Shown piece after piece: positions 41,319 to 63,722 of a stretch of 64,000 nt of DNA. Numbering within the stretch: position 1 is the stretch's first letter; the number at the start of each line of letters is the position of its first letter. The notes beneath the pieces are model-generated. The model was not told the origin of the DNA, did no database searches, and saw only the letters and a program-made list of their open reading frames with translations. The translations under genes and the position numbers were made by a program. This stretch comes from Prevotella sp. HUN102 (GTDB lineage: Bacteria > Bacteroidota > Bacteroidia > Bacteroidales > Bacteroidaceae). Location of the stretch: the NCBI RefSeq assembly GCF_000688375.1, contig NZ_JIAF01000004.1:744001-808000 (forward strand), in the 5' to 3' direction.

Positions 41319-41459
41319 ATGAAACGACAGGCCATTACGGAAAAGACGTGTCTGTATCACAGCGAAAACAATCGCATAAACACGCTTTTTATCCTCTCTG
41401 ACGGACGTTCTCTGCTGTTCGGGGGGGGGCGACCGTTTAGTCGTTTCGGACGATTCTGA
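41319..41459 (+). CDS. Small ORF containing a G9 tract (possible phase-variable leader)
   Basis: 46 codons from ATG 41319: MKRQAITEKTCLYHSENNRI followed by a hydrophobic part LFILSDGRSLLF, then GGG encoded by the nine G at 41421-41429, and a short tail to TGA 41457. If the tract lost one G (or gained two), the frame would stay open to TAA 41620-41622, giving about 100 residues and ending 31 nt before the BspA-like gene. A gain of one G gives an early stop. It matches no family I know and lies directly behind a good promoter. It may be a coding gene, a translated leader, or chance; the evidence is positional only. Confidence 0.35.
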   Translation: MKRQAITEKTCLYHSENNRINTLFILSDGRSLLFGGGRPFSRFGRF

Positions 41460-47230: not shown

Positions 47231-47304
47231 GGACTTGTAGCTCAGTTGGTTAGAGCAACAGACTCATAATCTGGAGGTCCCTGGTTCAAGCCCAGGCTGG
47301 TCCA
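47231..47304 (+). tRNA. tRNA-Met (anticodon CAU)
   Basis: Cloverleaf: acceptor GGACTTG with CTGGTCC (one U-U mismatch at 6-67, G-U at 5-68), D-arm GCTC/GAGC, anticodon loop CTCATAA, T-arm CCTGG-TTCAAGC-CCAGG. CCA is not encoded. The anticodon stem has a mismatch at its top pair. The elongator Met identity is more likely than tRNA-Ile2, but this cannot be told for certain from CAU alone. Confidence 0.9.
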
Positions 47305-50535: not shown

Positions 50536-50774
50536 AGAAAAGATAAGGATAATATCTCATAAAATCCAATCGTACGGACGTTTGTGGGGGATTTTTGAGA
50601 TAAGCACTTCATTCTGTATCTCTTTGGAATCCTTTTCGCATAAAAAAGATAATAATGTTTGAATATTGTGAAATGGATTGAAAGCAGATGAGCGTCAAAG
50701 TGTTTTTCTTATCCCGAAATCAGATTCGTTTAATTACTAATTTACAGTTTTATGTTAATAGTGGTTAAATATAT
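50536..50774. other. Divergent intergenic region upstream of the fimbrial promoter
   Basis: No gene recognised. The stretch is AT-rich; the FNT gene reads away to the left. No clear promoter box was found for the FNT gene. Confidence 0.4.
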
Positions 50775-50785
50775 GGGGGGGGGGG
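50775..50785 (+). repeat. Homopolymeric G11 tract
   Basis: Eleven consecutive G in an otherwise AT-rich stretch, ending 19 nt before the -33 box of the fimbrial promoter. Such tracts change length by slipped-strand mispairing. Confidence 0.95.
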
Positions 50786-50804
50786 AATTTTTCATTAAAT
50801 TAAT

Positions 50805-50836
50805 TTTGGTAAATCATTCTAAATAATCTACCTTTG
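50805..50836 (+). promoter_or_regulatory. -33/-7 promoter of the fimbrial operon
   Basis: TTTG (50805-50808), 20 nt, TACCTTTG (50829-50836): full consensus. The leader to the first gene is about 245 nt. It contains a 7-codon ORF at 50848-50871 and a CAGGTT-GCC-AACCTG hairpin at 50892-50906. Confidence 0.8.
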
Positions 50837-51087
50837 CACTTACCTTTATGAAAAGGGTAACGCTTATGTAAAATTGAGTTATAAAAGGATGCAGGTTGCC
50901 AACCTGTGGTTTCAAAAAATACTTGGCTCTTAGCTGTATAATTAATATAGAATATATTTTCCCGATAACAACGACTGTTTAAGGATTTTATAGCAAGGGC
51001 TGTAAAATAATCAAATAATATACTATATACCATAATATATATGGGTATTATTACGAAAAAATAATTAAAAATAAAATATATGTCATT

Positions 51088-51663
51088 ATGCAAATGAGAT
51101 TGCTCGCTATTTTGTTATGCGTCTCCCTGTTTTCGCTTCGAGGCAAGGCACAGGAGATAGCATTGAAGACAAACGTGTTGGCAGATGCGGCTTTGCCAGC
51201 ACCCAACTTTTCTGTCGAAATGAGTCTGGGAAAGAAACACACGCTCGACGTGATGGGCGTTCTGAATCCCTTTACTTACAGCGACAACAAGAAAATGAAG
51301 GTGTGGGCCGTTCAGCCTGAATGGCGTTATTGGTTCTGCTCCTCCTTCAATGGATGGTTCGTAGGTGCCCATGCACATACCGGACAATTCAACGTAGGCA
51401 ACTACAAGTTGCCCGCAGGCTTGTTCCCTTCCACGAAAGAACACCGTTACGAAGGTTGGATGGTGGGAGCCGGCGTTTCCGTAGGCTATCAGTGGGCTAT
51501 GTCCAAGCACTGGGGGATTGAGATGGAAATCGGGGCTGGATACACCTATTTCGATTACGACCGTTACAAGTGTGTGAAGTGTGGAGTGAAGGAAGGCAGC
51601 GAAAAGAAAGGCTTTTGGGGACCTACCAAGGCCGCAGTTTCACTGGTTTATATGATTAAATAA
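51088..51663 (+). CDS. DUF3575 protein, first gene of the fimbrial operon
   Basis: 191 residues with a signal peptide (LLCVSLFSLRGKAQ, about 21 residues). The mature protein has the DUF3575 pattern: EIALKTNVLADAALPAPNFS, SLGKKHTLDVMGVLNPF, WAVQPEWRYWFC and HWGIEMEIGAGYTYFDYDRY. This is an eight-stranded-barrel-like outer-membrane protein. Genes of this family regularly sit at the head of fimbrial (Mfa/Fim) clusters in Bacteroidetes and are thought to serve assembly or regulation of pili; the exact role is not established. The gap to the next gene is 11 nt. Confidence 0.8.
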   Translation: MQMRLLAILLCVSLFSLRGKAQEIALKTNVLADAALPAPNFSVEMSLGKKHTLDVMGVLNPFTYSDNKKMKVWAVQPEWRYWFCSSFNGWFVGAHAHTGQFNVGNYKLPAGLFPSTKEHRYEGWMVGAGVSVGYQWAMSKHWGIEMEIGAGYTYFDYDRYKCVKCGVKEGSEKKGFWGPTKAAVSLVYMIK

Positions 51664-51674
51664 GTTTAGATGCT

Positions 51675-53123
51675 ATGATGAGAAATATCATTAAGAACTG
51701 TTTGATGGCCTCGTTGGCATTGTGCCCTCTGTTGGGTTTTGCCGCAGAGGGAGGAGGGCCGCGCTTTAAAATACAGAAAGGTTATCTTGATGGCGACTCA
51801 GTCAAAGCCAAGATGACTGTGGTGTTGGACGACGTGAAGCTCAAGGAACAGACACTCCTTGTGCTGACGCCCAGTCTCGAAGCCGACAATAGTGGGCGGG
51901 TGTATGAATTTCCACCTATTTATATAGGAAGACACAATGCATTGGTTCAGTATAAGCGTCAGGCGAAGAAACTCGACCGTGGAGTAAAGCCGCTCGCAGT
52001 GGTTCGTCGCCATAACGGAAAACCACAGGAAGTAGAGGTAATACTCGCTGCTCCTTATAGCACTTGGATGGCAGATGCTGCCGTGAAAGTGGACGAAAGA
52101 GCTCGTGGCTGTGCAGGATGCGATTTGGGCGAAGACAATTACGACGTGGCTCAAAGACTTTTCGGCGATCCTTATACTCCTCAATACCAATTGGCTTACA
52201 TTGAGCCTAAGGTTGAGATGAACAAGGTAAGAAACGAGAGGTTTGCTGCTCATTTCGCTTTTACCGTCTCTAATTCTACCCTGATGCGCAGCTATCGCAA
52301 CAACAAGGTCGAGCTTGACCGTGTAGACAGTATTACCAACAGCATTCTGATGAACAAGGATCTCAAGGTTTCCGACATTTCCATTGATGGATATGCATCG
52401 CCCGAGGGAAACGAGAAAACCAATCTCGACTTGTCGAAAAACAGAGCGCAAGCCTTGGTTAAATATCTTGTGGACAAATATAAGCTGCCCGTGAATATGT
52501 TCCACGTGCAGGGACACGGAGAAGACTGGAACGGACTGCTACAGTTGGTCAAAAACTCTGAAATGGAATGGAAGAACGATGCGCTGACCATCATTAACAA
52601 TTATAATGGTAAGATGCGCAAGGAGAAACTGGTAGCCGTACACGAGGGATTGCCCTATCGTTTTCTGCTCCTCAACTTCTATCCGCTCCTCCGTCGCACC
52701 GAATACACCTTGAAATATAGCGTGAAAGACTTCAACCTTGAAGAAGCAAAGGCTTATATGGGCACCAAACCTCACTTGTTGAGTCTGAACGAAATGTATA
52801 TGGTGGCAAACAGCTACCCCGCAGGTAGTAAGGAGAGGAACGAAGTTTTCCGCACGGCTGCCTCCATTTACCCTAACGACCCTGTGAGTATGGCGAACCT
52901 CGCTGCTATGAAGATTTCGGAAGGTAGTGTGGACAATTCCATAGAAAACTTACTGAAGGGCGCATCTACCCACCCTCAAGCCATCAACAGCCTTGCTGTG
53001 CTCTATGCCAAGAAGGGCAATTGGGAAAAAGCAAAGGAACTTTTCAAGCAGGTGGCTGATATGCCTGAGGCACAAAACAATATGAAGGAAATGCAGAAGG
53101 TGCTCGAAAGCATTGGTCTGTAA
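51675..53123 (+). CDS. DUF3868/OmpA-like/TPR fimbrial accessory protein
   Basis: 482 residues. A signal peptide (LALCPLLGFA) is followed by a DUF3868 N-terminal domain (about 25-170). An OmpA-like peptidoglycan-binding segment (about 195-330) contains SDISIDGYASPEGNEKTNLD and LSKNRAQALVKYLVD. The C-terminal ~130 residues hold TPR-like helices (AINSLAVLYAKKGNWEKAKE). The combination suggests a periplasmic or outer-membrane protein that links the pilus machinery to the cell wall. It is encoded between the DUF3575 protein and the major pilin, the usual order in Bacteroidetes fimbrial clusters. Start ATG 51675 or 51678. Confidence 0.8.
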   Translation: MMRNIIKNCLMASLALCPLLGFAAEGGGPRFKIQKGYLDGDSVKAKMTVVLDDVKLKEQTLLVLTPSLEADNSGRVYEFPPIYIGRHNALVQYKRQAKKLDRGVKPLAVVRRHNGKPQEVEVILAAPYSTWMADAAVKVDERARGCAGCDLGEDNYDVAQRLFGDPYTPQYQLAYIEPKVEMNKVRNERFAAHFAFTVSNSTLMRSYRNNKVELDRVDSITNSILMNKDLKVSDISIDGYASPEGNEKTNLDLSKNRAQALVKYLVDKYKLPVNMFHVQGHGEDWNGLLQLVKNSEMEWKNDALTIINNYNGKMRKEKLVAVHEGLPYRFLLLNFYPLLRRTEYTLKYSVKDFNLEEAKAYMGTKPHLLSLNEMYMVANSYPAGSKERNEVFRTAASIYPNDPVSMANLAAMKISEGSVDNSIENLLKGASTHPQAINSLAVLYAKKGNWEKAKELFKQVADMPEAQNNMKEMQKVLESIGL

Positions 53124-53168: not shown

Positions 53169-54914
53169 ATGTACAAAATCAGAACAAAAGTAATGGCTGC
53201 CTTGGTCCTTGGATTAGGATTCTTGACAGCATGTTCAAACAATGACGATTTGGACAACGGAGGCGGAACTGCGCCTAACGGTAGCACTTACATGTCTGTT
53301 GCTATCAATTTGGCTACTGGTGCTGGCACTCGTGCTGACAACCAGAAGGACACAGGGAATGGCGACAATCCTGACTACAACTTCGTAGGTAAGTGGGCAG
53401 GTCAGGACAAGGTTAATGCTATCGATGTCTATGTATTTAACGATGCTGACAACCTCGAGGCTTATCAGAACTTCCCTGCTGGCCAGTTCGAGGTTAAGGG
53501 TGCCGCTGCTGACCACACAGTAACGATTACTCCTTCTAAGGGTATCAAAGTGCTTCCTGGTACAAAGACTGTTTATGTAGTGGTTAATCCAACTACAGAT
53601 ACACAGAGCTTCTTGCCTAGCACATTGAATACGACTACACTCGTAGCTTTCAAGGAGAAGTATGAGAATGTAGCTAGCGCATCTACTAACTTCTTCAAGC
53701 TTGCCAATAGTGGTAACAACCAGACTAATGTTGAGACTTCTGCTGATAAGCTTGCTAAGGTAGACGCTAACAATGACGTTATCACTATGACAGCTATTGA
53801 GGCTGCTACAAACGTGGATGTAAAGGATAACGTAAGCGAGGCTGCTACTTTGGCTGGTAACACTACCAACCGTGCTAAGCTCACAGTAAAGCGTGCCGTA
53901 GCTCGTGTTATGGTTACAACAAAGGAAAATAGCTTTGAAGTAAAGGGCGACGATCCTTTGACAGCTGAGGTAGAAACCGATGCGGTGCTGGGTACTGTTA
54001 AGGACATTAAGTATGTTGTGGCTCAGGGAGAGCAGGCTATGTACTTTATGCAGCGCGATGGTGCTTCTGCTGATTTGACCTATAAGACTCCATTCTCTGA
54101 CTATGTAGCTAATGCTACCAACTACACATGGGCTTTGGCTGGTGCACAGTATGACTACTCTGGTCTGTGGAAGAATTATAACGCTAATGGTATTGGCGGT
54201 GTTACTGTTCCTACTAAGGAACTTTATAAGAAAAATGACAATCCTACTACACTGGGTAACATTTCACAGGCTTTGAAGGATCAGTTGAATGGTGAGTTCA
54301 TTTTGCCTAACACCCATAAGTGGGGTGCTAATCAGGATGCTTCTGGCTATCGCAAGGGTAACACAGCTTATGTCCTCGTACGTGCTCTGTTCGTACCTAA
54401 GAAGGTCGTGATGGAAGATGGTTCTATTAATCAGAGCTATCCAGAAGGCAAGACATTCTTTATGGGTGCCAATGGTGTATTCTATGAAAATGTAAAGGCT
54501 GCTCGCGATGCTGCTAACAAGGGTGTGGCTAAGCAGACTGCTGCTCAGTATGTAAATGGTAAGACTATCTATTTTGCTTGGGTAAATCCTGATCACGCAG
54601 ATGATGGTAAGTGGATTAACTCTCCTGTAAATCGTAACAACATCTATCACATTCAGATTGATGGCTTCAAGAGAATAGGTTCTAACTGGAACCCATTGGT
54701 TCCTAATGATCCTAACCACCCTAACGATCCAACAGAAAATCCTAACAACCCTGACCCAAAACCAAAGGATGGTAATCCTAGCGAACCTAACGAGCCAAAC
54801 GAACCTCCTGTAAAGCCAGACGATCCATTGACTCCGAAGGAAACTTGGATGTCTGTTCAGACAACAATCCTTCCTTGGAATGTTCACTCTTACTCTGTTG
54901 TCCTTGACATGTAA
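53169..54914 (+). CDS. Major fimbrillin, Mfa1-type lipoprotein
   Basis: 581 residues. Lipobox with Cys 22 (FLTAC). The first strand STYMSVAINLATGAGTRADN has Arg 55, the expected protease site that frees a groove for the donor strand of the next subunit, as in P. gingivalis type V pili. Two beta-sandwich domains follow (about 60-260 and 270-500) with VDAIDVYVFN- and ARVMV-like fimbrillin motifs. The linker 510-560 is rich in Pro, Asn, Asp and Glu, and the C-terminal donor strand is TTILPWNVHSYSVVLDM. Codons are strongly biased (GCT, GGT, AAG), more than in neighbours, pointing to very high expression. A terminator follows, so it is expected to be the most abundant subunit. Confidence 0.9.
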   Translation: MYKIRTKVMAALVLGLGFLTACSNNDDLDNGGGTAPNGSTYMSVAINLATGAGTRADNQKDTGNGDNPDYNFVGKWAGQDKVNAIDVYVFNDADNLEAYQNFPAGQFEVKGAAADHTVTITPSKGIKVLPGTKTVYVVVNPTTDTQSFLPSTLNTTTLVAFKEKYENVASASTNFFKLANSGNNQTNVETSADKLAKVDANNDVITMTAIEAATNVDVKDNVSEAATLAGNTTNRAKLTVKRAVARVMVTTKENSFEVKGDDPLTAEVETDAVLGTVKDIKYVVAQGEQAMYFMQRDGASADLTYKTPFSDYVANATNYTWALAGAQYDYSGLWKNYNANGIGGVTVPTKELYKKNDNPTTLGNISQALKDQLNGEFILPNTHKWGANQDASGYRKGNTAYVLVRALFVPKKVVMEDGSINQSYPEGKTFFMGANGVFYENVKAARDAANKGVAKQTAAQYVNGKTIYFAWVNPDHADDGKWINSPVNRNNIYHIQIDGFKRIGSNWNPLVPNDPNHPNDPTENPNNPDPKPKDGNPSEPNEPNEPPVKPDDPLTPKETWMSVQTTILPWNVHSYSVVLDM

Positions 54915-55024: not shown

Positions 55025-56005
55025 ATGAAGCATTTTAACAAGATATTATTGGCAATATTCACGTTGGCGACAATTATAGGGTGTGACAGCCTGATCTATG
55101 ATGACAATAAGGATTGTCCCCAAGGTGTATATGTGAGCTTTTATTCCCAAACACCTTGTGAGGAAGAGCCCGTCTATCCTTCTGTTGAACACTTGGAAGT
55201 ATTTGCATTCGATGAAAATGGAATATTGGCCGGGATGCAGGAGGTAGAGAATCCTAAGCTGGCGGCTGATTACGAAATATATATGCCATTGCCACAAGGT
55301 GCTTATACTTTTGTGGCGTGGACAGGACTGGACGCTGACCGACTGGAACGCAGCCTCTTGAAAGTGGGCAGCACAAAGAAGTCGGATCTCTTGTTCAGCC
55401 TCAAGGAAAAGGCAGTTTTTGCCGATGCTAACCCTGAACCGGGATTCAAAATCTATCAGGGCGAAAGCGAAAAGATTTATCTGCCGTCCAGCGAAGACAA
55501 CGGTACGGTAGAAATACATACGAAGGTCAATCTTATGGAGCAGACCAATCGTATCAAGGTTTCCCTCGTTGGTGTGAAGGAACCTAACAATTTCGAGATA
55601 AGAGTTTATTCTGCCAATGGAAGCTCAAATGTCGATGGAAATATGCCATTGAACAACAAGGTTATGCAGTATCCGGGCATTGCAACTGCCAACCCCAGCG
55701 ATACGGTGCTTGTGAGCAAATTCAACACGCTGAAGCTGAAGACTGGCTACAAAAACACACTGGAAGTCTACGATAAGTTCCAGAATAAGGTGATATTCCG
55801 TGCCGACCTGATTGGCTCAATACTCTTGAGCAAGTCTGACGACCACGACACCAACATCAATCTCGACTGTACGCACGATTTCGACGTGAAGCTGTACGTA
55901 AGAGATGTATGCAACTGCGATGACTATACAGTCATTGCCTGCGAAGTAAATTTAATTAAATGGAGCGTCCATAGCTATAGTATAGACTTGGGTGGAGTTT
56001 ATTAA
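55025..56005 (+). CDS. FimB/Mfa2-family anchor lipoprotein
   Basis: 326 residues. Lipobox with Cys 20 (TIIGC). The FimB/Mfa2 pattern follows: DCPQGVYVSFYSQTPCEE, VEHLEVFAFDENG, LPQGAYTFVAWTGLD and VKLYVRDVCNCDDYTVIACE. Family members cap the pilus base, fix it to the outer membrane and limit its length. Unlike all other fimbrillins here, it has no Thr-Arg site after its first strand, which fits an uncleaved anchor. The C-terminus LIKWSVHSYSIDLGG repeats the W-x-V-H-S-Y-S motif of the major pilin. A 17-nt gap to the next gene. Confidence 0.9.
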   Translation: MKHFNKILLAIFTLATIIGCDSLIYDDNKDCPQGVYVSFYSQTPCEEEPVYPSVEHLEVFAFDENGILAGMQEVENPKLAADYEIYMPLPQGAYTFVAWTGLDADRLERSLLKVGSTKKSDLLFSLKEKAVFADANPEPGFKIYQGESEKIYLPSSEDNGTVEIHTKVNLMEQTNRIKVSLVGVKEPNNFEIRVYSANGSSNVDGNMPLNNKVMQYPGIATANPSDTVLVSKFNTLKLKTGYKNTLEVYDKFQNKVIFRADLIGSILLSKSDDHDTNINLDCTHDFDVKLYVRDVCNCDDYTVIACEVNLIKWSVHSYSIDLGGVY

Positions 56006-56021
56006 TCACTGAAACATTATA

Positions 56022-57524
56022 ATGATGAGTTATAAAAAGATATTTCAAGGTTACTTGGTGTGGATGGCGGCTTCGCTTCTACTCTTTTCCTGTTCCTCCA
56101 ACGTGGAGGGACCGGACGAGGACGTGGAGGGCAAGGCTCCGCACTGGCTTGCCATATCTGTCAGCTTGCCACACTTCGCCCAGACAAGAGCCGGAGTAGC
56201 TGATAAAGGCAACGACCAGTCTTATGACGGTTCGGCAAACGACCAGAAGGTGGACTCTGCGCGTGTTGTCCTGTACGATGACAACAGTATGGCCGTTTAC
56301 TCTTTCGACATTACTTCTACGGATGTAGCCGTAGGATCATTTACCCACGCTCCTTTCACTATCAAGGCAAGAGCACTCAAGAAGGCCAATTATTCGGTCT
56401 TGGTGCTCCTGAATCCCAGCGACAAAGTGAAGGCCGTTACGAACAAAGGCAACGTAAAATCGCAGTTTGAAGCTGCTGCCAGTATAGGCATCAACGATCT
56501 TGCCTCTAATGCCAACGGCGTGTTTATGACAAACGCTTACGGCTATGTGCCTACGGCCGATGGCAACTGGAAGGAAACCCAAGCCGAGGCAGAGGCAACG
56601 AACGTGCCTGTTGAGGTAAAGGTGGAGCGTGCCGTGGGCAAGGTGTTTGTTTCTCCTGCCCAAGGAGCAGACGTGCCTGTCGAAGGTGGTGCGGAGGTCG
56701 GCAAGGCTACGATGAGCGACTTTGCTCTCGACGTTACCAACCTGAAAACCTACTGGATGCGTAAGCCCGGTAAGAGTCTTACAGGCAATGGCACAGCCGA
56801 TGCCGAAGCACCCACAGCCGATGAGACCAACACCACACCACATTACTATCAGTACGCCATCGACCCTAATATGGGCGTGTCGGCAGTTACTGAATTTAGC
56901 AATGCCGTGGAGTATCCTCAGGCCTTCTCAACTGGTGGATGGGAAGATTCCAAGGGTATCTATGTTGTCGAGAATACGATGGATGCCACAGCCCAAAAGC
57001 GCAACAACTCAACTCGAGTGCTGGTGCGCCTCACATATTTGCCAGCCTCGCTGATTTTCGCCCCTGCCGGCGATAAGAGTTGGGCAGACTACCGAGGCAA
57101 GGTAATGACGCTCAAGGAGCTGAAAGAGAAAATCAACGATGCGGCCACGAAGACCGACGAGGAGATGAAGATGCCCGTAGGTTTCAAGGAAGATGTGGCT
57201 AAACTTAGCAATGAGGAAAAGACTTTCGCCAAGTCATTCGTCAGCCACAACCTGAAATACTACCATCAGGGACAGAACATATATGCTACTTATATCCGCC
57301 ATTTCGATGATGCGAAGCAGCCTAAGTTTATGGCTTATGGCAGGTATGGCGTAGTGCGAAACCACATCTATAAGATAGAGGTTACCAAGGTGATGGGGCC
57401 CGGCTCGCCCGTTCCACCCAAGCCTGACGACAATCCCGACGACAACACCGCTACTTATATAGCTGTGAAAACGGTTGTTGTGCCGTGGGGTACGAGAGAC
57501 CTCAAGAATATCATACTTGACTAA
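56022..57524 (+). CDS. Accessory fimbrillin (Mfa1-like), first
   Basis: 500 residues. Lipobox Cys 24 (LLFSC), then the first strand WLAISVSLPHFAQTRAGVAD with Arg 56 as cleavage site. Fimbrillin motifs: ARVVLYDDNSMAVYSFDI, KKANYSVLVLLNPSD and VEVKVERAVGKVFV. The C-terminal strand is TYIAVKTVVVPWGTRDLKNI followed by ILD. It differs from the major pilin in codon use and length and is probably a shaft-associated or adaptor subunit. Co-directional with the anchor gene, 17 nt away. No other function was visible. Confidence 0.85.
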   Translation: MMSYKKIFQGYLVWMAASLLLFSCSSNVEGPDEDVEGKAPHWLAISVSLPHFAQTRAGVADKGNDQSYDGSANDQKVDSARVVLYDDNSMAVYSFDITSTDVAVGSFTHAPFTIKARALKKANYSVLVLLNPSDKVKAVTNKGNVKSQFEAAASIGINDLASNANGVFMTNAYGYVPTADGNWKETQAEAEATNVPVEVKVERAVGKVFVSPAQGADVPVEGGAEVGKATMSDFALDVTNLKTYWMRKPGKSLTGNGTADAEAPTADETNTTPHYYQYAIDPNMGVSAVTEFSNAVEYPQAFSTGGWEDSKGIYVVENTMDATAQKRNNSTRVLVRLTYLPASLIFAPAGDKSWADYRGKVMTLKELKEKINDAATKTDEEMKMPVGFKEDVAKLSNEEKTFAKSFVSHNLKYYHQGQNIYATYIRHFDDAKQPKFMAYGRYGVVRNHIYKIEVTKVMGPGSPVPPKPDDNPDDNTATYIAVKTVVVPWGTRDLKNIILD

Positions 57525-57531
57525 AAGACAA

Positions 57532-59037
57532 ATGACTCTATTCAAAGTGAAACAGAAGATTGACGGCCATTTCCATCGGGCAATATTTGATGCTTGCCTG
57601 ATGATGTTGGTAGCTCTTGCCGCCCTATCGTGTTCAAATCACGATGAGGCAGAGCCGGAGAATCTGCACGGTGGGGTGGGCTATATGGCCATTTCTACGC
57701 GAGCACAGGGAACAGCAGGCTCTCTCAACAAAGATACGAAGGACTATGAAGACAAGGTGGTAGACCTTCGACTCATAGCCTTTGAACATGCAACAGGAAA
57801 GGCTGTGTACAATAAGAAGCACGCCATTGCCGACTTTACCGACTATGCCGTTAAGGTGCCTATGCGCACCGGTGAATACGACTTCTGCTTCGTTGCCAAC
57901 GAGACAACGGAAATGACAGCTGCGCTCGATAAGGTTGCCTTCAAGGACGGACTTTACTACGACGATGTACTGACAAAGATTCCCTACAAGGGCGTCAATG
58001 ATAAGCCGCAGACTTTTCTTATGACAGCAGAAGTAACGAATACCGTTGTTGCCAACAATACACAGAACAATCCCCTCAAGCTCGATGTGGAGCTGATTCG
58101 TTGCTTGGCAAAGGTGGACATCAATATGCTCTACAAGGAGAATATGAACGCTAAGGAGAAGGAAGCCACCAAGGGGTTGCGCCTTACTGCCGTACAGTTC
58201 AAGAATCTGCCCAAGACCTATTCTCTCTTTCCTCCGAAGACGGCGTATGCCGGCGAGCTGGTGGAAGACAACTATGAGGGCTACAAGGACGCAAAGTATA
58301 GTGAAGACGGCACCAACCCCGTACTGCGCAAGGCGGTCTATGTACCCGAGTATCTTCGTGCTGCCACTTCCCCTGAGGATAAGAAAAGCACGATAGGCGT
58401 GCACTACGAGAAGCACGGTATCGATCGTGTCCACACTGTGGATATCGACCATCAGGATTTTAATAAGGGAGGCTACAAGCCTGCCATAGCAGACCAATTA
58501 AGCACCAAGAGCATTGTCCGCAATACTGCCTATTCCCTTTCGGGCGAGCTGAAAGGCTGGATAGAAGAATCAATAACCTTCAACTGGGAGATCCTACCGT
58601 GGACGGTGGTAGCTTCGGAGAAAGAGTTCTCAGCTGTTGCCGTGCAGGTAAAAGACCCTAAGCAGCCCAACTTGGATATTCAGGGCGAGGGTGGAAACGA
58701 ACTGGTTTGGCATTCCGGTGCAGCCGGTGGTCTGAAGCTGACGTTCGATATACAGGAGCCGGCAGGTGGCGTATGGCGTTTTACCATTACCAACCGCAAC
58801 GACTTCGACCTCAAGGGGAAAATGGTAAATAGTGGACTCGAAGCCGTTACAGGTGTTGCAGGCAGCGGTCCTGTGGAACTGACCATCACTCCGCTAAAGC
58901 CGTGGACGGGAATCATCCGTTCCACCGAGCTTTACCTCACTATCAACGGTGTGGAGGTGCAGATTGTTCCGAAGTTTATCGAGAACAAGATTGAACCGGG
59001 ACCTACTAAAAGATATTTGATCAAACAAGCCAATTAA
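57532..59037 (+). CDS. Accessory fimbrillin, second
   Basis: 501 residues from ATG 57532, chosen because the earlier start would overlap the preceding gene. Lipobox Cys 34 (AALSC), first strand GYMAISTRAQGT with Arg 57. Fimbrillin-like strands include VVDLRLIAFEHATGKAVY and TGEYDFCFVANETTEMTA. The C-terminal ~130 residues (after ITFNWEILPWTVVASEKEF) form an extra beta-sandwich domain that the other subunits lack (WRFTITNRNDFDLKGKMVNS). This extra domain suggests a tip-proximal or adaptor subunit. Seven nt lie between the previous stop and this start. Confidence 0.8.
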   Translation: MTLFKVKQKIDGHFHRAIFDACLMMLVALAALSCSNHDEAEPENLHGGVGYMAISTRAQGTAGSLNKDTKDYEDKVVDLRLIAFEHATGKAVYNKKHAIADFTDYAVKVPMRTGEYDFCFVANETTEMTAALDKVAFKDGLYYDDVLTKIPYKGVNDKPQTFLMTAEVTNTVVANNTQNNPLKLDVELIRCLAKVDINMLYKENMNAKEKEATKGLRLTAVQFKNLPKTYSLFPPKTAYAGELVEDNYEGYKDAKYSEDGTNPVLRKAVYVPEYLRAATSPEDKKSTIGVHYEKHGIDRVHTVDIDHQDFNKGGYKPAIADQLSTKSIVRNTAYSLSGELKGWIEESITFNWEILPWTVVASEKEFSAVAVQVKDPKQPNLDIQGEGGNELVWHSGAAGGLKLTFDIQEPAGGVWRFTITNRNDFDLKGKMVNSGLEAVTGVAGSGPVELTITPLKPWTGIIRSTELYLTINGVEVQIVPKFIENKIEPGPTKRYLIKQAN

Positions 59038-59040
59038 GCA

Positions 59041-61281
59041 ATGAAGATATCAAGCTATATATACGCAGCCATCGCCTCAGTATTCTTGCTGACACTGAGT
59101 GCCTGTCGGGCGGAAGACGAGCTTCCTACCATCGATAAGGAGAATTCTTACCAAATACAGTTTGGATTGTCCATCCTCCCTCCACAGACCCGTGCCGTGG
59201 AGCCGGGAATTGATGATCCCCTCAACGAGAATAAGATAACGAAGATGGACGCCTTCCTCTACGATGATGCGGGCGTGCAGCAGGGACATTATTCTACGGA
59301 AAAGGGCGACTTGGTCGTATCCAATGCTACTGCCGTCTCAGGCACGGCTACCATCTATGTACCCAAGACTTCCAATTTATCGGGCAGATATACGGGACAC
59401 GATTATCATCTTTATGTACTCGTAAACTATCACGGTACAGAATCCCTGACCGGCAAGACGCTCGACCAGTTGAAGGCCGTTAAGCTGACTTCTGTCTCGC
59501 TTGTGCAGACTCCTGATATTCAGCCGCAGGCCGACTTCCTTATGGATGGAACGGTAAAGACGGGAGCGATGACGTGGGCTACAAGCAATAACTACACAGT
59601 AGGGCAGACCGTGAAGCTGTCTCGTGCTGCCGCTAAAATCAGAATTCGCTTGGATACGGATATCGTGATACAGGATAAGGAAGACACGTATGAAGTTGTC
59701 GGCGCGCCCACTATAACGCTCAAAAGCTATACCAACCAGACCAACCTGTTGGCAGGCTCTCCTTTGGCTACGCCCCAATACAAGTCTATGGACGATGCTC
59801 AGGGACAGCCAATGGTACAGGCAGAGTATAATGGCAAGCATTTTTGGGCGCGTCAAACGCCCTATTACAGCTACGAGAACGATTGGAGTTATGATGGCAA
59901 GGTGCGCACATACGCTGTTATCAAGTTGCACGTTAAGGGAAAAAATAACAAAAAGGACCTCGACACCTATTATAGCATTCCTCTGAACTATCTTGCCGTT
60001 AAGGACGGTATGACCAAAGAGGAGATTGCAGGCATGTCGAAACTTCAGCGCAACCATCTCTACGACATACAGTGCAGAATCAAGGAGTTTGGTAGTGCCG
60101 AGCCTACCAAGCCCGTTGATATCCCCCTTGGGTATATTGCCATAGAGGACTGGAACACGCCCGATGCCATCGATGCTGCCATTACCAAAGCCCACTATCT
60201 CGTGGTAAAGGAACTTAAGCCCGAGATGCTGAACGTGAATGAGCGTCTTGTTGAATATATCTCCGACTTGGATATTGATGTTCCGAAGATGAACGGAACC
60301 GTTGAGTATGAATATACACAATATGAAAGGAATGGCTCTACTACACAGATTAAAGGAAAAGGCAGTGAAAAAAATATTACGATAGAGACGATTACTCAGG
60401 GCTATAAAAAGTACCTGAAGATAAAGAGTCCTATCCCCGACAATTATGTGCCTCTTACCATCCGTTTCAGAGTTGAGCAGATAAAGGATCCCGATGACCC
60501 AACAGCCACCCCTCTATGGAAGGATGTCGAGGTAACGCAGTATCCACCTGTATATGTAACGGCAAAGAAATCTAAGGGTACTGAAATCTATTGGTATTCT
60601 ACTTTTACAGCTTGGAACAATTTGGGAGCAAATGGACGAGGCTATCAGAGCAACGGCACATTGTTTAAAGTTACAACGCTTGCACCTTTGGATGGTCAGA
60701 TTGTTGGAGATCCTACGTTTGGTACTGATAGAACAGATAGAGGTGAAGAAGCTAATAAAATTACGTCTCCTCAGTTTATTGTAGCTTCGCAATGGGGTAT
60801 GAGTACGGCTGTTCCCCAATATTCTGATTCTAATAACGACTTAGGGTGGATACAAGATAGTTATAATTATGAAGCAGCTACAGGCAAAGTAGATGCGTAT
60901 AAAACTAGTGGAGATTATTCTTATAGATATCGTAATTATTCTAATGCAGAGAATCGTGCCTATAATTATTGGGAAGATGATTATGGAGTTTCCGGGAATA
61001 GAACTATACAAACATTAAGGCAGGGCTACTATTGGGCTGAGGAAAAGAATTTAAAATTTAAGTACGAAGGTCATTGGCGCATCCCTACTTTGGCTGAATT
61101 AGCATTGATTGTAAAAATTCAAAAAGACCCCAATAGTGCTGTAAAGAGTCTTCTGTGGGGGCATCAATACTGGTCAGCACAAACGGATATGGGGTATGAC
61201 TTTGATAATGCAAGAAACTATCCCACCAACGGTACTTTATCCATCCGTCCTGTCTTTGATACATATAACAAGAGTGAATAA
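59041..61281 (+). CDS. Large fimbrial (tip?) subunit with WRIPT-type C-terminal domain
   Basis: 746 residues. Lipobox Cys 22 (LSAC), first strand IQFGLSILPPQTRAVEPG with Arg 51. Fimbrillin motifs (ITKMDAFLYDDAG, DYHLYVLVNYHG, VKLSRAAAKIRI) fill the first 380 residues. From about 425 a separate module follows, ending with RQGYYWAEEKNLKFKY, GHWRIPTLAELALIVKI and QYWSAQTDMGYDFDNA. This W-R-(I/L)-P-T pattern is seen in DUF1566/FISUMP-like C-type-lectin-fold domains of bacterial surface proteins. The coding DNA of that part is clearly AT-richer than the rest. A C-terminal binding domain at the pilus tip is the likely role (inference). The stop overlaps the next start. Confidence 0.75.
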   Translation: MKISSYIYAAIASVFLLTLSACRAEDELPTIDKENSYQIQFGLSILPPQTRAVEPGIDDPLNENKITKMDAFLYDDAGVQQGHYSTEKGDLVVSNATAVSGTATIYVPKTSNLSGRYTGHDYHLYVLVNYHGTESLTGKTLDQLKAVKLTSVSLVQTPDIQPQADFLMDGTVKTGAMTWATSNNYTVGQTVKLSRAAAKIRIRLDTDIVIQDKEDTYEVVGAPTITLKSYTNQTNLLAGSPLATPQYKSMDDAQGQPMVQAEYNGKHFWARQTPYYSYENDWSYDGKVRTYAVIKLHVKGKNNKKDLDTYYSIPLNYLAVKDGMTKEEIAGMSKLQRNHLYDIQCRIKEFGSAEPTKPVDIPLGYIAIEDWNTPDAIDAAITKAHYLVVKELKPEMLNVNERLVEYISDLDIDVPKMNGTVEYEYTQYERNGSTTQIKGKGSEKNITIETITQGYKKYLKIKSPIPDNYVPLTIRFRVEQIKDPDDPTATPLWKDVEVTQYPPVYVTAKKSKGTEIYWYSTFTAWNNLGANGRGYQSNGTLFKVTTLAPLDGQIVGDPTFGTDRTDRGEEANKITSPQFIVASQWGMSTAVPQYSDSNNDLGWIQDSYNYEAATGKVDAYKTSGDYSYRYRNYSNAENRAYNYWEDDYGVSGNRTIQTLRQGYYWAEEKNLKFKYEGHWRIPTLAELALIVKIQKDPNSAVKSLLWGHQYWSAQTDMGYDFDNARNYPTNGTLSIRPVFDTYNKSE

Positions 61282-63722
61282 TGGTTATGAAGAAACGAAG
61301 TAAATACTATATAGCTATGGTGGTAGGCATACTGATGCTGCTTACCTCCTGCACGAACGACATCTTTGAGTCGTTAGGTGGCGAAGACGGCACCGACGGC
61401 GTGCCCGTAACGCTTACTTTCGCTACGGCACTCCCCGGAGGAGCTGTGAAGACGAGGTCGCCTCGCGACATTAACAACCTTACCTTGTTGGTCTTCAACG
61501 ACAAACACCGCTACCTTTATCGTGCCAAGGCTGCCCTTAAAAGAGTGATTACGAAACCTGCCGGTATTGTTTTCGAGCCTGAACTTGCAAGAAAAGAAAT
61601 TGTTGGCGACGAAGTCTATGAGTTTACTGTTACGTTGATGACGAGCACTAAGCCCCGCATCATTCACTTTGTTGCCGATTACGACAAGCTAGATGAAGCC
61701 TTGGGCGAAGACCATACGTTGAAAGATGCCGACGAGGGCGAGATAATGCCTCGCATTATCAGTCAGGACCAAAATAGTTATACCTATTGGCAGTCGTTCT
61801 TTTTCAGCAAGATAGACAATACCATTTTCAACAACAAGGGTTTCAAGCTCTTGCGAAATAAGGCGAAGTTTACCATAAAGGATGAGGTGCCCAACGACCA
61901 GTTTGAGCTGAAAGGCTTCAGCATTCACAATGCACCCGATCGTGGCACCGTGGTTTCGTACGCTCCTAAAACGGAGCTGAACCCGAATGGTCCGCGCCCG
62001 TTCTATCGCGACGTGCTCTATACTTTCCCTATCGACCCTACCGAAACGACGATGCCGTCAGATATAAAGCTCGACAATTTGGGAGATACGAAAAAGAATC
62101 TCGACGCTATCTCTGTATTCGAATACAGCAACAGCCAGGCCGACCCCGATAAGCAGATGTCTATCATTCTGTACGGAAGAGGAAAGGCCGACAAAGCCGA
62201 TTCGTATTATAAGCTCGACATCACGCGCGATATTTATGCCGATCCCGATACGAAGCAGAAGTTTATCGGTACGCAGCGATTCGATGTTATCCGTAACTAT
62301 AATTACATTATCAGAATTAAGTCTGCCAACGGTAAGGGTTATCCCACCTACGACGAGGCTGTGCGCAACCCTGCCAGCAACAATCTCTTCGGTTCGGTGG
62401 AGTTGGAGAATTATTCCGACGTTACCGATGGTGAGTACACCCTCATTGTGGATAACACCAAAGCCATCATGACCCTTCCGGGCCACTTCTATTCGCCCAT
62501 CACGTTTGCAGGTACAAACCTCGAGAAACCTTCTGAGCATGTGGACGTCTATCTGAACGGGAAGGAATGTAACGGCCATATAGATGGCGATCCATACATC
62601 GACCATGCCGAATATAACAAAACCACGGGTGTGCTCGATGTGAATGTGAAGGATATTCCTACTGCCGAGGATAAGCACTATGTGTTTAATGTTGTGGCGA
62701 CAGCTCCCAACAAGACCACTCATATCCAGCGTACCATTGAGCTGATTCTGCGTAAGCGGTATGATTTTAAGATGCGTCTGGAAGAGAAAACCACGAGCAG
62801 GGCGCAAGGCAGCGAGGTCGATGTGGTGCTGACCATTCCCGGTACGCTCCCGGCAACGCTCTATCCTTTCGATGTCTACATCGCTGCCGATCAGTTGAGT
62901 CCGTTGGTTACTTCCGCCATCAACGACCAAATGAAGGTGCTCAAGTATGGCAAGCGCACCTATTATGTCTATACGGTCCGCACGGCGTCTACGACCGATC
63001 AGGAGGTTACGCTCCACTTCCAGCGTACCCGTAGCAACGGCACTTGCGACGTTACTGCCATCTCCGACAACTTCTACAATGCCGATGCCATATTGCCCAA
63101 TGATAACAGCACCCAGACCGATAATCGGGGCTTGCTCACCTATACAGGCATCAGCTATACTGTGCCAAAGGTGGTGCCCAGTGAGTACCGTACGAAGCTG
63201 AGTCTTACGGGTACAGGATCAGCCGGCGTTACGGCCAAGATGGCATCTGCCGGTTATGTGGAGTTTGGAGGTGCAGGTTGGGCCAACGCTGCCGGCAGCC
63301 TTACCCTCACTGCTACGATGGAGTTGGGCAATGGTGTCGTGAAGGCCACGAAGATGCTCTCTGCAGACGAGTGGAGGCAACAACTGAAAGACAGGAAGAC
63401 CATCAACTTGGATATTACCGATGTTACGGTGGAGGAAAAGGCGCAATACAAGGAGTCTAACGCTGCCATTTATAAGCAGGTACCTGGCGGTACTCAGTTC
63501 AAGGTAAGAACCAGTGATGCCTCAGGGAAAGTCAATGTTGATATCCAATCTACGGGAGTGGGTACATACAAGATGATTGTTACAGGGCTTAAAGATCTGA
63601 AGACGCCTATTGCGTTCACTTGCGAAGCAACGATTTACAGGAAGAAGTATGAAACGAACTCCATTTATCTGTCCAAGATATTCGATGCTCCAGTTATGTA
63701 TCTGACGCCTCACTTTAATTAA
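61281..63722 (+). CDS. Large fimbrial subunit, DUF4906-like with Ig-like domains
   Basis: 813 residues, start ATG 61281 overlapping the previous stop (TAATG); ATG 61287 is possible. Lipobox Cys 24 (LLTSC), then VPVTLTFATALPGGAVKTRS with Arg 59 at the expected cleavage position. The N-terminal fimbrillin-like domain has INNLTLLVFNDKHRYLYRA. The C-terminal half consists of several Ig-like modules (TLIVDNTKAIMTLPGHFYSP, VDVVLTIPGTLPATLYPFDV, LSLTGTGSAGVTAKMASAGY). DUF4906-type proteins occupy the same place in other Bacteroidetes fimbrial clusters. Probably a large tip adhesin component; no ligand can be named. Confidence 0.72.
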   Translation: MVMKKRSKYYIAMVVGILMLLTSCTNDIFESLGGEDGTDGVPVTLTFATALPGGAVKTRSPRDINNLTLLVFNDKHRYLYRAKAALKRVITKPAGIVFEPELARKEIVGDEVYEFTVTLMTSTKPRIIHFVADYDKLDEALGEDHTLKDADEGEIMPRIISQDQNSYTYWQSFFFSKIDNTIFNNKGFKLLRNKAKFTIKDEVPNDQFELKGFSIHNAPDRGTVVSYAPKTELNPNGPRPFYRDVLYTFPIDPTETTMPSDIKLDNLGDTKKNLDAISVFEYSNSQADPDKQMSIILYGRGKADKADSYYKLDITRDIYADPDTKQKFIGTQRFDVIRNYNYIIRIKSANGKGYPTYDEAVRNPASNNLFGSVELENYSDVTDGEYTLIVDNTKAIMTLPGHFYSPITFAGTNLEKPSEHVDVYLNGKECNGHIDGDPYIDHAEYNKTTGVLDVNVKDIPTAEDKHYVFNVVATAPNKTTHIQRTIELILRKRYDFKMRLEEKTTSRAQGSEVDVVLTIPGTLPATLYPFDVYIAADQLSPLVTSAINDQMKVLKYGKRTYYVYTVRTASTTDQEVTLHFQRTRSNGTCDVTAISDNFYNADAILPNDNSTQTDNRGLLTYTGISYTVPKVVPSEYRTKLSLTGTGSAGVTAKMASAGYVEFGGAGWANAAGSLTLTATMELGNGVVKATKMLSADEWRQQLKDRKTINLDITDVTVEEKAQYKESNAAIYKQVPGGTQFKVRTSDASGKVNVDIQSTGVGTYKMIVTGLKDLKTPIAFTCEATIYRKKYETNSIYLSKIFDAPVMYLTPHFN

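Follow-up and report, generated by a model that had tools for sequence, protein, structure and literature searches.

The fimbrial operon and its promoter region

The window, which is the whole stretch of 64,000 nucleotides of Prevotella sp. HUN102 DNA that was analysed, was found to contain open reading frames that continued on the same strand from 51088 to its end. The following genes were identified:

51088..51663, + strand: DUF3575 gene, the first of the operon (PF12099, 1.9e-71)
51675..53123, + strand: OmpA-domain gene, with DUF3868 and TPR matches below the cut-off (Pfam)
53169..54914, + strand: fimbrillin with Fimbrillin_C domain (PF15495)
55025..56005, + strand: Mfa2-type anchor protein (PF08842)
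56022..57524, + strand: fimbrillin with Fimbrillin_C and FimA domains (PF15495, PF06321)
57532..59037, + strand: FimA-type subunit (PF06321)
59041..61281, + strand: FimA-type subunit of 746 aa (PF06321)
61281..63722, + strand: co-directional gene of 813 aa without a Pfam match (ORF list and Pfam scan)

Genes with fimbrillin/FimA and Mfa2 domains were found together in one operon, which is the mark of a type V fimbrial operon, and the type V (FimA/Mfa) reading was backed by Pfam for five of the first eight ORFs. The original prediction had counted at least eight fimbrial genes, which held for the operon as a whole, whereas only five genes were fimbrial by domain. The type V operons (FimA/Mfa) of Porphyromonas and Bacteroides likewise combine fimbrillin, FimA and Mfa2 domains within a single operon, whereas the operon of the window was found to be led by a DUF3575 gene and an OmpA-type gene with a G tract ahead of them.

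The promoter consensus described for Bacteroidales contains a -33 TTTG element and a -7 TAnnTTTG box (PMC7366714). The region ahead of the operon was found to contain the following elements:

50755..50758, + strand: distal TTAA of a TTAA-N6-TTAA pair, presumed operator (from the sequence; an excess of pairs with 10-bp spacing precedes the genus tracts)
50765..50768, + strand: proximal TTAA, with the tract 10 nt on and TAATTTTG 36 nt on
50775..50785, + strand: G11 tract, presumed slippable ruler, covering the expected -33 place of P1 (G10 in P. dentasini)
50801..50808, + strand: TAATTTTG, the -7 box proposed for P1, the tract-ruled promoter (distance 36, genus peak 36-38; conserved)
50805..50808, + strand: TTTG, -33 element of P2, common to the P1 box (from the sequence; conserved in P. 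dentasini)
50829..50836, + strand: TACCTTTG, -7 box of P2 (from the sequence; conserved in P. dentasini)
50837..51087, + strand: leader of about 250 nt ahead of the first gene, without an Rfam match

The predicted order of a G11 tract at 50775-50785, followed by 19 nt and by the presence of TTTG-N20-TACCTTTG (P2), was confirmed on the sequence, the P2 spacer of 20 being the usual spacing. The tract was the only 11-G run of the window (0.02 expected by dinucleotide shuffling, with such a run in 1 of 100 shuffled sequences) and places a homopolymer of at least 8 in the promoter region, as in homopolymer promoter-spacing contingency loci. The distance from the proximal TTAA was found to be 36 nt to TAATTTTG (10+11+15) and 64 nt to TACCTTTG. 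The -33 place of P1 contained G bases and not TTTG, followed just downstream by the overlapping P2, which uses the TTTG of the P1 box. A similar tandem promoter arrangement was found in L090 without the TTAA. The sole Rfam match at gathering thresholds in 44-64 kb was the tRNA at 47231-47304. Two G9 runs (41421-41429 of the window and L039:4001-4009) were found in GC-rich DNA without a fitting -7 box, and both precede secreted proteins with a similar AQGKEAY start.

Most descriptions of phase variation in Bacteroidales concern DNA inversion, as the original prediction had also stated, and the surface loci of Bacteroides contain invertible promoters, with phase-variable structures that include fimbriae (PMC12632263). 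These promoters use site-specific inversion, whereas the inverted repeats found between 50500 and 51150 were all imperfect and 10-21 nt long (up to 21 nt at 71%), and a recombinase was encoded by none of 10 ORFs scanned at 48.5-63.7 kb, in agreement with the earlier statement that neither is present at this promoter. Promoter inversion as the control of the operon was therefore ruled against, there being no suitable flanking repeats or, among the ORFs scanned, a neighbouring recombinase, and is considered extremely improbable.

Conservation and recurrence of the tract promoter

Judged by the first operon gene, the closest named relative was Prevotella dentasini JCM 15908 (90% protein identity), which was found to contain a G10 tract at the equivalent place instead of the G11 of the window, and only four tracts of at least 8 in 2.5 Mb. 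Upstream of the tract the two sequences were poorly alike except for GTTAAAT adjoining the tract, and downstream of it TTAAATTAATTTTGGTAAA and TACCTTTGCA were common to both. P. dentasini contained one TTAA only, at 37 nt from the -7 box and at 65 nt from TACCTTTG, the 37 nt being reached from different parts (6+10+21) than the 36 nt of the window. Since the surroundings of the tract differ too, slippage alone does not explain G11 against G10. Because the TTAA spacing rule fits 36/37 and not 64/65, TAATTTTG was chosen over TACCTTTG as the tract-ruled -7 box and, from its position, is likely to be the -7 box of P1. The conservation of P2 and its usual spacing would suit an operon driven by TTTG-N20-TACCTTTG alone with a neutral or chance tract; the tract, however, was conserved at an otherwise diverged site. 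A search for close relatives of the promoter DNA matched 10 of 397 other genus genomes, all as fragments of at most 70 bases with E 7e-5 or worse, and thus yielded neither a second strain nor a near species. In two of those ten genomes 24 of 24 bases matched 51021-51044 of the window, but these do not have the look of a common leader.

The HUN102 genome (3.32 Mb in four contigs) was found to contain 15 G/C tracts of at least 8 (merged rows), whereas about 49 are predicted by arithmetic from the window base frequencies with independent bases. A long G run is thus unremarkable genome-wide, as a neutral tract would have it, and the remarkable points are the place and conservation of the G11 and not the mere presence of a long run. 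Ten tracts were of at least 9 (one G16, the G11 of the window, one G10 and seven G9). At eight G, two tracts (L125/L180 and L187/L181) agree with the TTAA-to-box module at 36 nt, and others were found in coding or GC-rich DNA or without a -7 box nearby. The longest tract, the G16 (L036:14259-14274; C4:1017258-1017273 of the genome), was located upstream of a BspA-type leucine-rich-repeat protein gene with a TTAA pair ahead and a TACCTTTG box 80 nt away. The G10, a C10 tract on the coding strand (L037:4347-4356, near 2106346 of C4), was found inside an HsdS-type gene (L037:3818-4876, PF01420) that adjoins an N6 methylase gene; an HsdS-type specificity gene is a classical place for slippage, and this is likely a phase-variable restriction-modification system.

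Among the 30 best DUF3575 loci of 150 genus genomes (window included), nine were found to contain a coding-strand G8-G11 within 450 nt upstream, and a tenth (L072) contained C8 runs only, in GC-rich DNA. Three of 20 further loci contained a G tract in promoter context, a fourth (L117) contained G/C runs in a different setting, and one genome, G318, accounted for 13 of the 20. Such a tract was missing from 38 of the 50 loci (window included), which again would suit a neutral tract. The 13 DUF3575 genes of G318 (L100-L112) had many very similar upstream regions, none with a G tract. Against neutrality, the tract recurs at related operons and is rare elsewhere in the loci: the 26 loci with full flanks contained seven G runs of at least 8 in 11,960 upstream nt and one in 80,451 nt elsewhere, and their C runs numbered 2 upstream and 4 elsewhere. 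These 26 were drawn from the 29 loci other than the window, three with incomplete flanks being left out.

The layout G8-TAA-N14-43-TAnnTTTG was found 73 times in 49 of 249 genus genomes, against one match of the reversed control. When at least six G were required, 73 matches were obtained from 150 genomes, with 5 in the control, and 46 matches in the same 150 contained at least eight G, so that match numbers hold up with tract length, unlike chance. The 73 matches of the first search correspond to 72 tracts (one overlapping pair), of which 67 were fetched; the other five were that of G297 and those of L077, L080, L099 and L119, which belong to the protein-chosen set. Together with two G7 tracts and one duplicate (L196 = L146), 70 rows were obtained, 69 of them distinct and 68 with full upstream sequence. 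The tract was G7 in 2 rows, G8 in 44, G9 in 20 and G10 in 4. The downstream proteins (n=58 of 61 frames, L196, L209 and L212 being dropped by eye as duplicate or chance) included 7 carboxypeptidase-regulatory-like, 6 TonB plug, 5 DUF3575, 4 BspA-type LRR, 2 NusG and 2 arginyl-tRNA synthetase proteins, in a tally of the 25 commonest of 60 families. The two NusG-like genes after tract promoters (PF02357; L130:703-1269 and L214:477-1016) possibly encode antitermination regulators of surface polysaccharide loci.

The genus tracts were preceded by TTAA pairs 10 bp apart, 40 of which were found in the 68 upstream stretches, against 1.2 expected and a maximum of 5 in 200 dinucleotide shuffles; the pair was present in 38 of the 69 distinct rows. 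Of the 69 rows, 49 had a TTAA within 17 nt and a gap no longer than 30, and in 23 of these the nearest TTAA was located 36-38 nt from the -7 box, against a permuted mean of 11.6 (P ~1e-4; range chosen post hoc). The compensation tests on this distance were non-significant (spread P 0.13, correlation P 0.20), and helical clustering of the distance gave no clear pattern. At the protein-chosen fimbrial loci the distance was 37, 36, 37 and 37, also 53, 44, 42 and 54, and three loci were without TTAA. A TTAA-N6-TTAA pair with a box at 36-37 nt was found at six sites in 301,696 bases (window, DUF3575 loci, and stretches of the own genome and of P. dentasini); five contained a G8-G11 and L095 none, and the sole such site of the window was the fimbrial locus. 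Ten of those stretches had been selected for tracts, and none of the six sites falls in them. There is good support for the G tract as a functional component of a promoter module that recurs, and the TTAA pair would be a regulator site. The paired motif and its distance rule also speak against a neutral or chance tract, which is considered very improbable. A spacing switch requires just such an arrangement, in which the tract separates TTAA-N6-TTAA from a -7 box and a preferred distance is kept between the two.

Tract lengths among relatives and in Alistipes

The main rival of a spacing switch is a quasi-fixed operator, in which the G run would be a structural or recognition part of a TTAA-N6-TTAA-G8-TAA regulator site, with small length differences tolerated or neutral and without switching on a biological time scale. 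It accords with the narrow length range of the genus (64 of 70 tracts G8 or G9) and with the recurrent flanks, TTAA upstream and TAA downstream, of which the TAA had been specified in the search, the protein-chosen loci excepted. The lengths nevertheless span G7-G11, and the G16 before the BspA-type gene was without a box at the usual distance. Among Prevotella-group relatives, three cross-species pairs (L189/L219, L120/L144 and L199/L218) were found to differ by one G at an equal tract-to-box gap, which counts against the quasi-fixed operator, whereas at least four pairs of equal tract length (L135/L220, L124/L224, L145/L221 and L206/L215) count for it; pairing was decided by visual comparison of protein starts and flanks, and for L206/L215 of the flanks only. 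Tract and gap both differed in L203/L207, and the paralogues L192/L193 of one genome contained G8 and G10 with the gap differing by one base. Searches of viral contigs for tract variation within populations gave 34 and 66 matches at listing level.

Two DUF3575 loci of Alistipes MAGs were found to contain G11 and G9 between TTTG and TATATTTG. In the genus Alistipes, a G7-G11 inside the -33/-7 spacer was found in 67 of 180 genomes (112 matches, control 0), at least one match (in G545:C132) being chance-like. The G run length was 9 in 84 of the 112 matches, and the spacer was 18 in 64, 19 in 11, 20 in 5, 21 in 14, 22 in 7 and elsewhere in 11. The ordinary promoters of one Alistipes genome, taken as the only yardstick with 100 of 116 places listed, had a spacer of 19-20 in 69 of 97, whereas the tract promoters had it in 16 of 112 (Fisher 2e-17, relatedness ignored). 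Small sets of loci agree with 19-20 as the ordinary spacing, so that the tract promoters were mostly one base short of it (18 vs 19-20). Of the 33 downstream frames (L226-L258), 30 were scanned, L228, L231 and L247 being set aside on inspection as duplicate or chance; the 30 encoded mainly proteins of the outer membrane or secreted ones, 2 of them DUF3575.

With identical flanks, the Alistipes tract lengths were found to vary in four groups (11/9/10/11; 10/8 in one genome; 9/10; 10/9/9), the first of which counts against a quasi-fixed operator, whereas the other eight multi-member flank groups were constant at 9, as that rival would have it. Alistipes shows tract-length change at conserved promoters, in a related lineage with a different layout, which is no proof for the window. 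The quasi-fixed operator is considered possible but rather doubtful.

Across the order, G9 with TAnnTTTG 4-20 nt on was hardly enriched: 16 of 295 genomes contained 29 matches, several of which overlapped, and the control gave 19. The spacer-type layout with G8 was found in 0 of 291 genomes, its control giving 4 matches. Since these layouts show no order-wide enrichment, the G-tract design is confined to certain genera and does not extend to the order. G235, from another family of the order, had G9 a short way ahead of TAnnTTTG boxes in six matches, which correspond to five tracts, and is possibly a third lineage with tract promoters.

A proposed slippable spacer and its significance

As the best reading, we judge it somewhat more probable than not that slippage in the G11 would alter operator-promoter spacing and so vary expression of the fimbrial operon. 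A factor, or a part of RNA polymerase, would bind TTAA-N6-TTAA on one face of the DNA, with 36 nt separating the proximal TTAA from the P1 box TAATTTTG and with the expected -33 stretch occupied by the G run. Strand slippage in the G11 would shift distance and helical phase one base at a time, so that transcription of the type V operon would go up or down in a heritable and reversible manner, and P2, overlapping just downstream, may supply a basal level. TTAA binding, use of the -7 box, length-dependent expression and within-species switching are what we infer from this arrangement. The G16 before the BspA-type gene and the C10 inside the HsdS-type gene of the same genome are further points in favour of this reading. 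The original prediction of a G-tract spacing switch stood in that the tract was kept, recurrent and located at the preferred TTAA-to-box distance; G11 against G10, the recurrence at DUF3575 loci and the length differences in relatives speak for it. It did not stand as to the promoter, the tract-ruled one more likely being that of TAATTTTG than P2, which was conserved too. A counterpoint to a slippable ruler is that most genus tracts were G8 (44/70) or G9 (20/70), short for fast slippage, and the quasi-fixed operator is retained for this reason.

The repeat unit of nadA in Neisseria meningitidis is other than a G homopolymer. The upstream repeats of nadA alter operator spacing (PMC2791445), and the repeat of the window is likewise found between a putative upstream regulator site and the promoter; nadA has the repressor NadR, whereas the window has a G homopolymer and a putative binder. 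The nearest known design is the poly(C) spacing switch of Bordetella pertussis fim3 (PMC10172299). In fim2/fim3, as described there, the poly(C) length sets the distance of an activator site or core element to RNA polymerase, and several tract lengths occur in one culture. Like these, the window contains a homopolymer in a fimbrial promoter, whereas its core promoter is of Bacteroidales type (TTTG/TAnnTTTG), it contains TTAA-N6-TTAA and not BvgA sites, its fimbriae are of type V and not chaperone-usher, and the typical tract of the Prevotella layout is 8-11 against 11-16 in B. pertussis.

A term search of the main text of a Bacteroidales review (PMC12632263), which treats inversion, found neither 'slipped' nor 'homopolymer', and another phase variation review names the Bacteroides inversions (PMC11868660). 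Searches of open-licence papers gave none whose title or abstract start described a homopolymer, poly-G or slipped-strand system for Prevotella, Alistipes, Bacteroides or Porphyromonas. A slippage system would escape inversion finders, and the assembly consensus would partly hide tract variation.

More tentatively, and with some doubt, Bacteroidales may have evolved G-tract-ruled sets of surface-gene promoters at least twice: in Prevotella with a slippable G8-G11 between TTAA-N6-TTAA and a -7 box kept about 37 nt away, and in Alistipes with G8-G11 filling the -33/-7 spacer, usually one base off the optimum, where single slips would turn the promoter on. If true, fimbriae, TonB receptors and BspA-type proteins would be phase-variable without a recombinase, in an order noted for inversion. 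The reading yields simple predictions for archived sequencing reads, and TTAA-N6-TTAA is a named operator motif whose binder can be sought. Slippage would offer gut and oral commensals a second possible means of diversifying their fimbriae and receptors.
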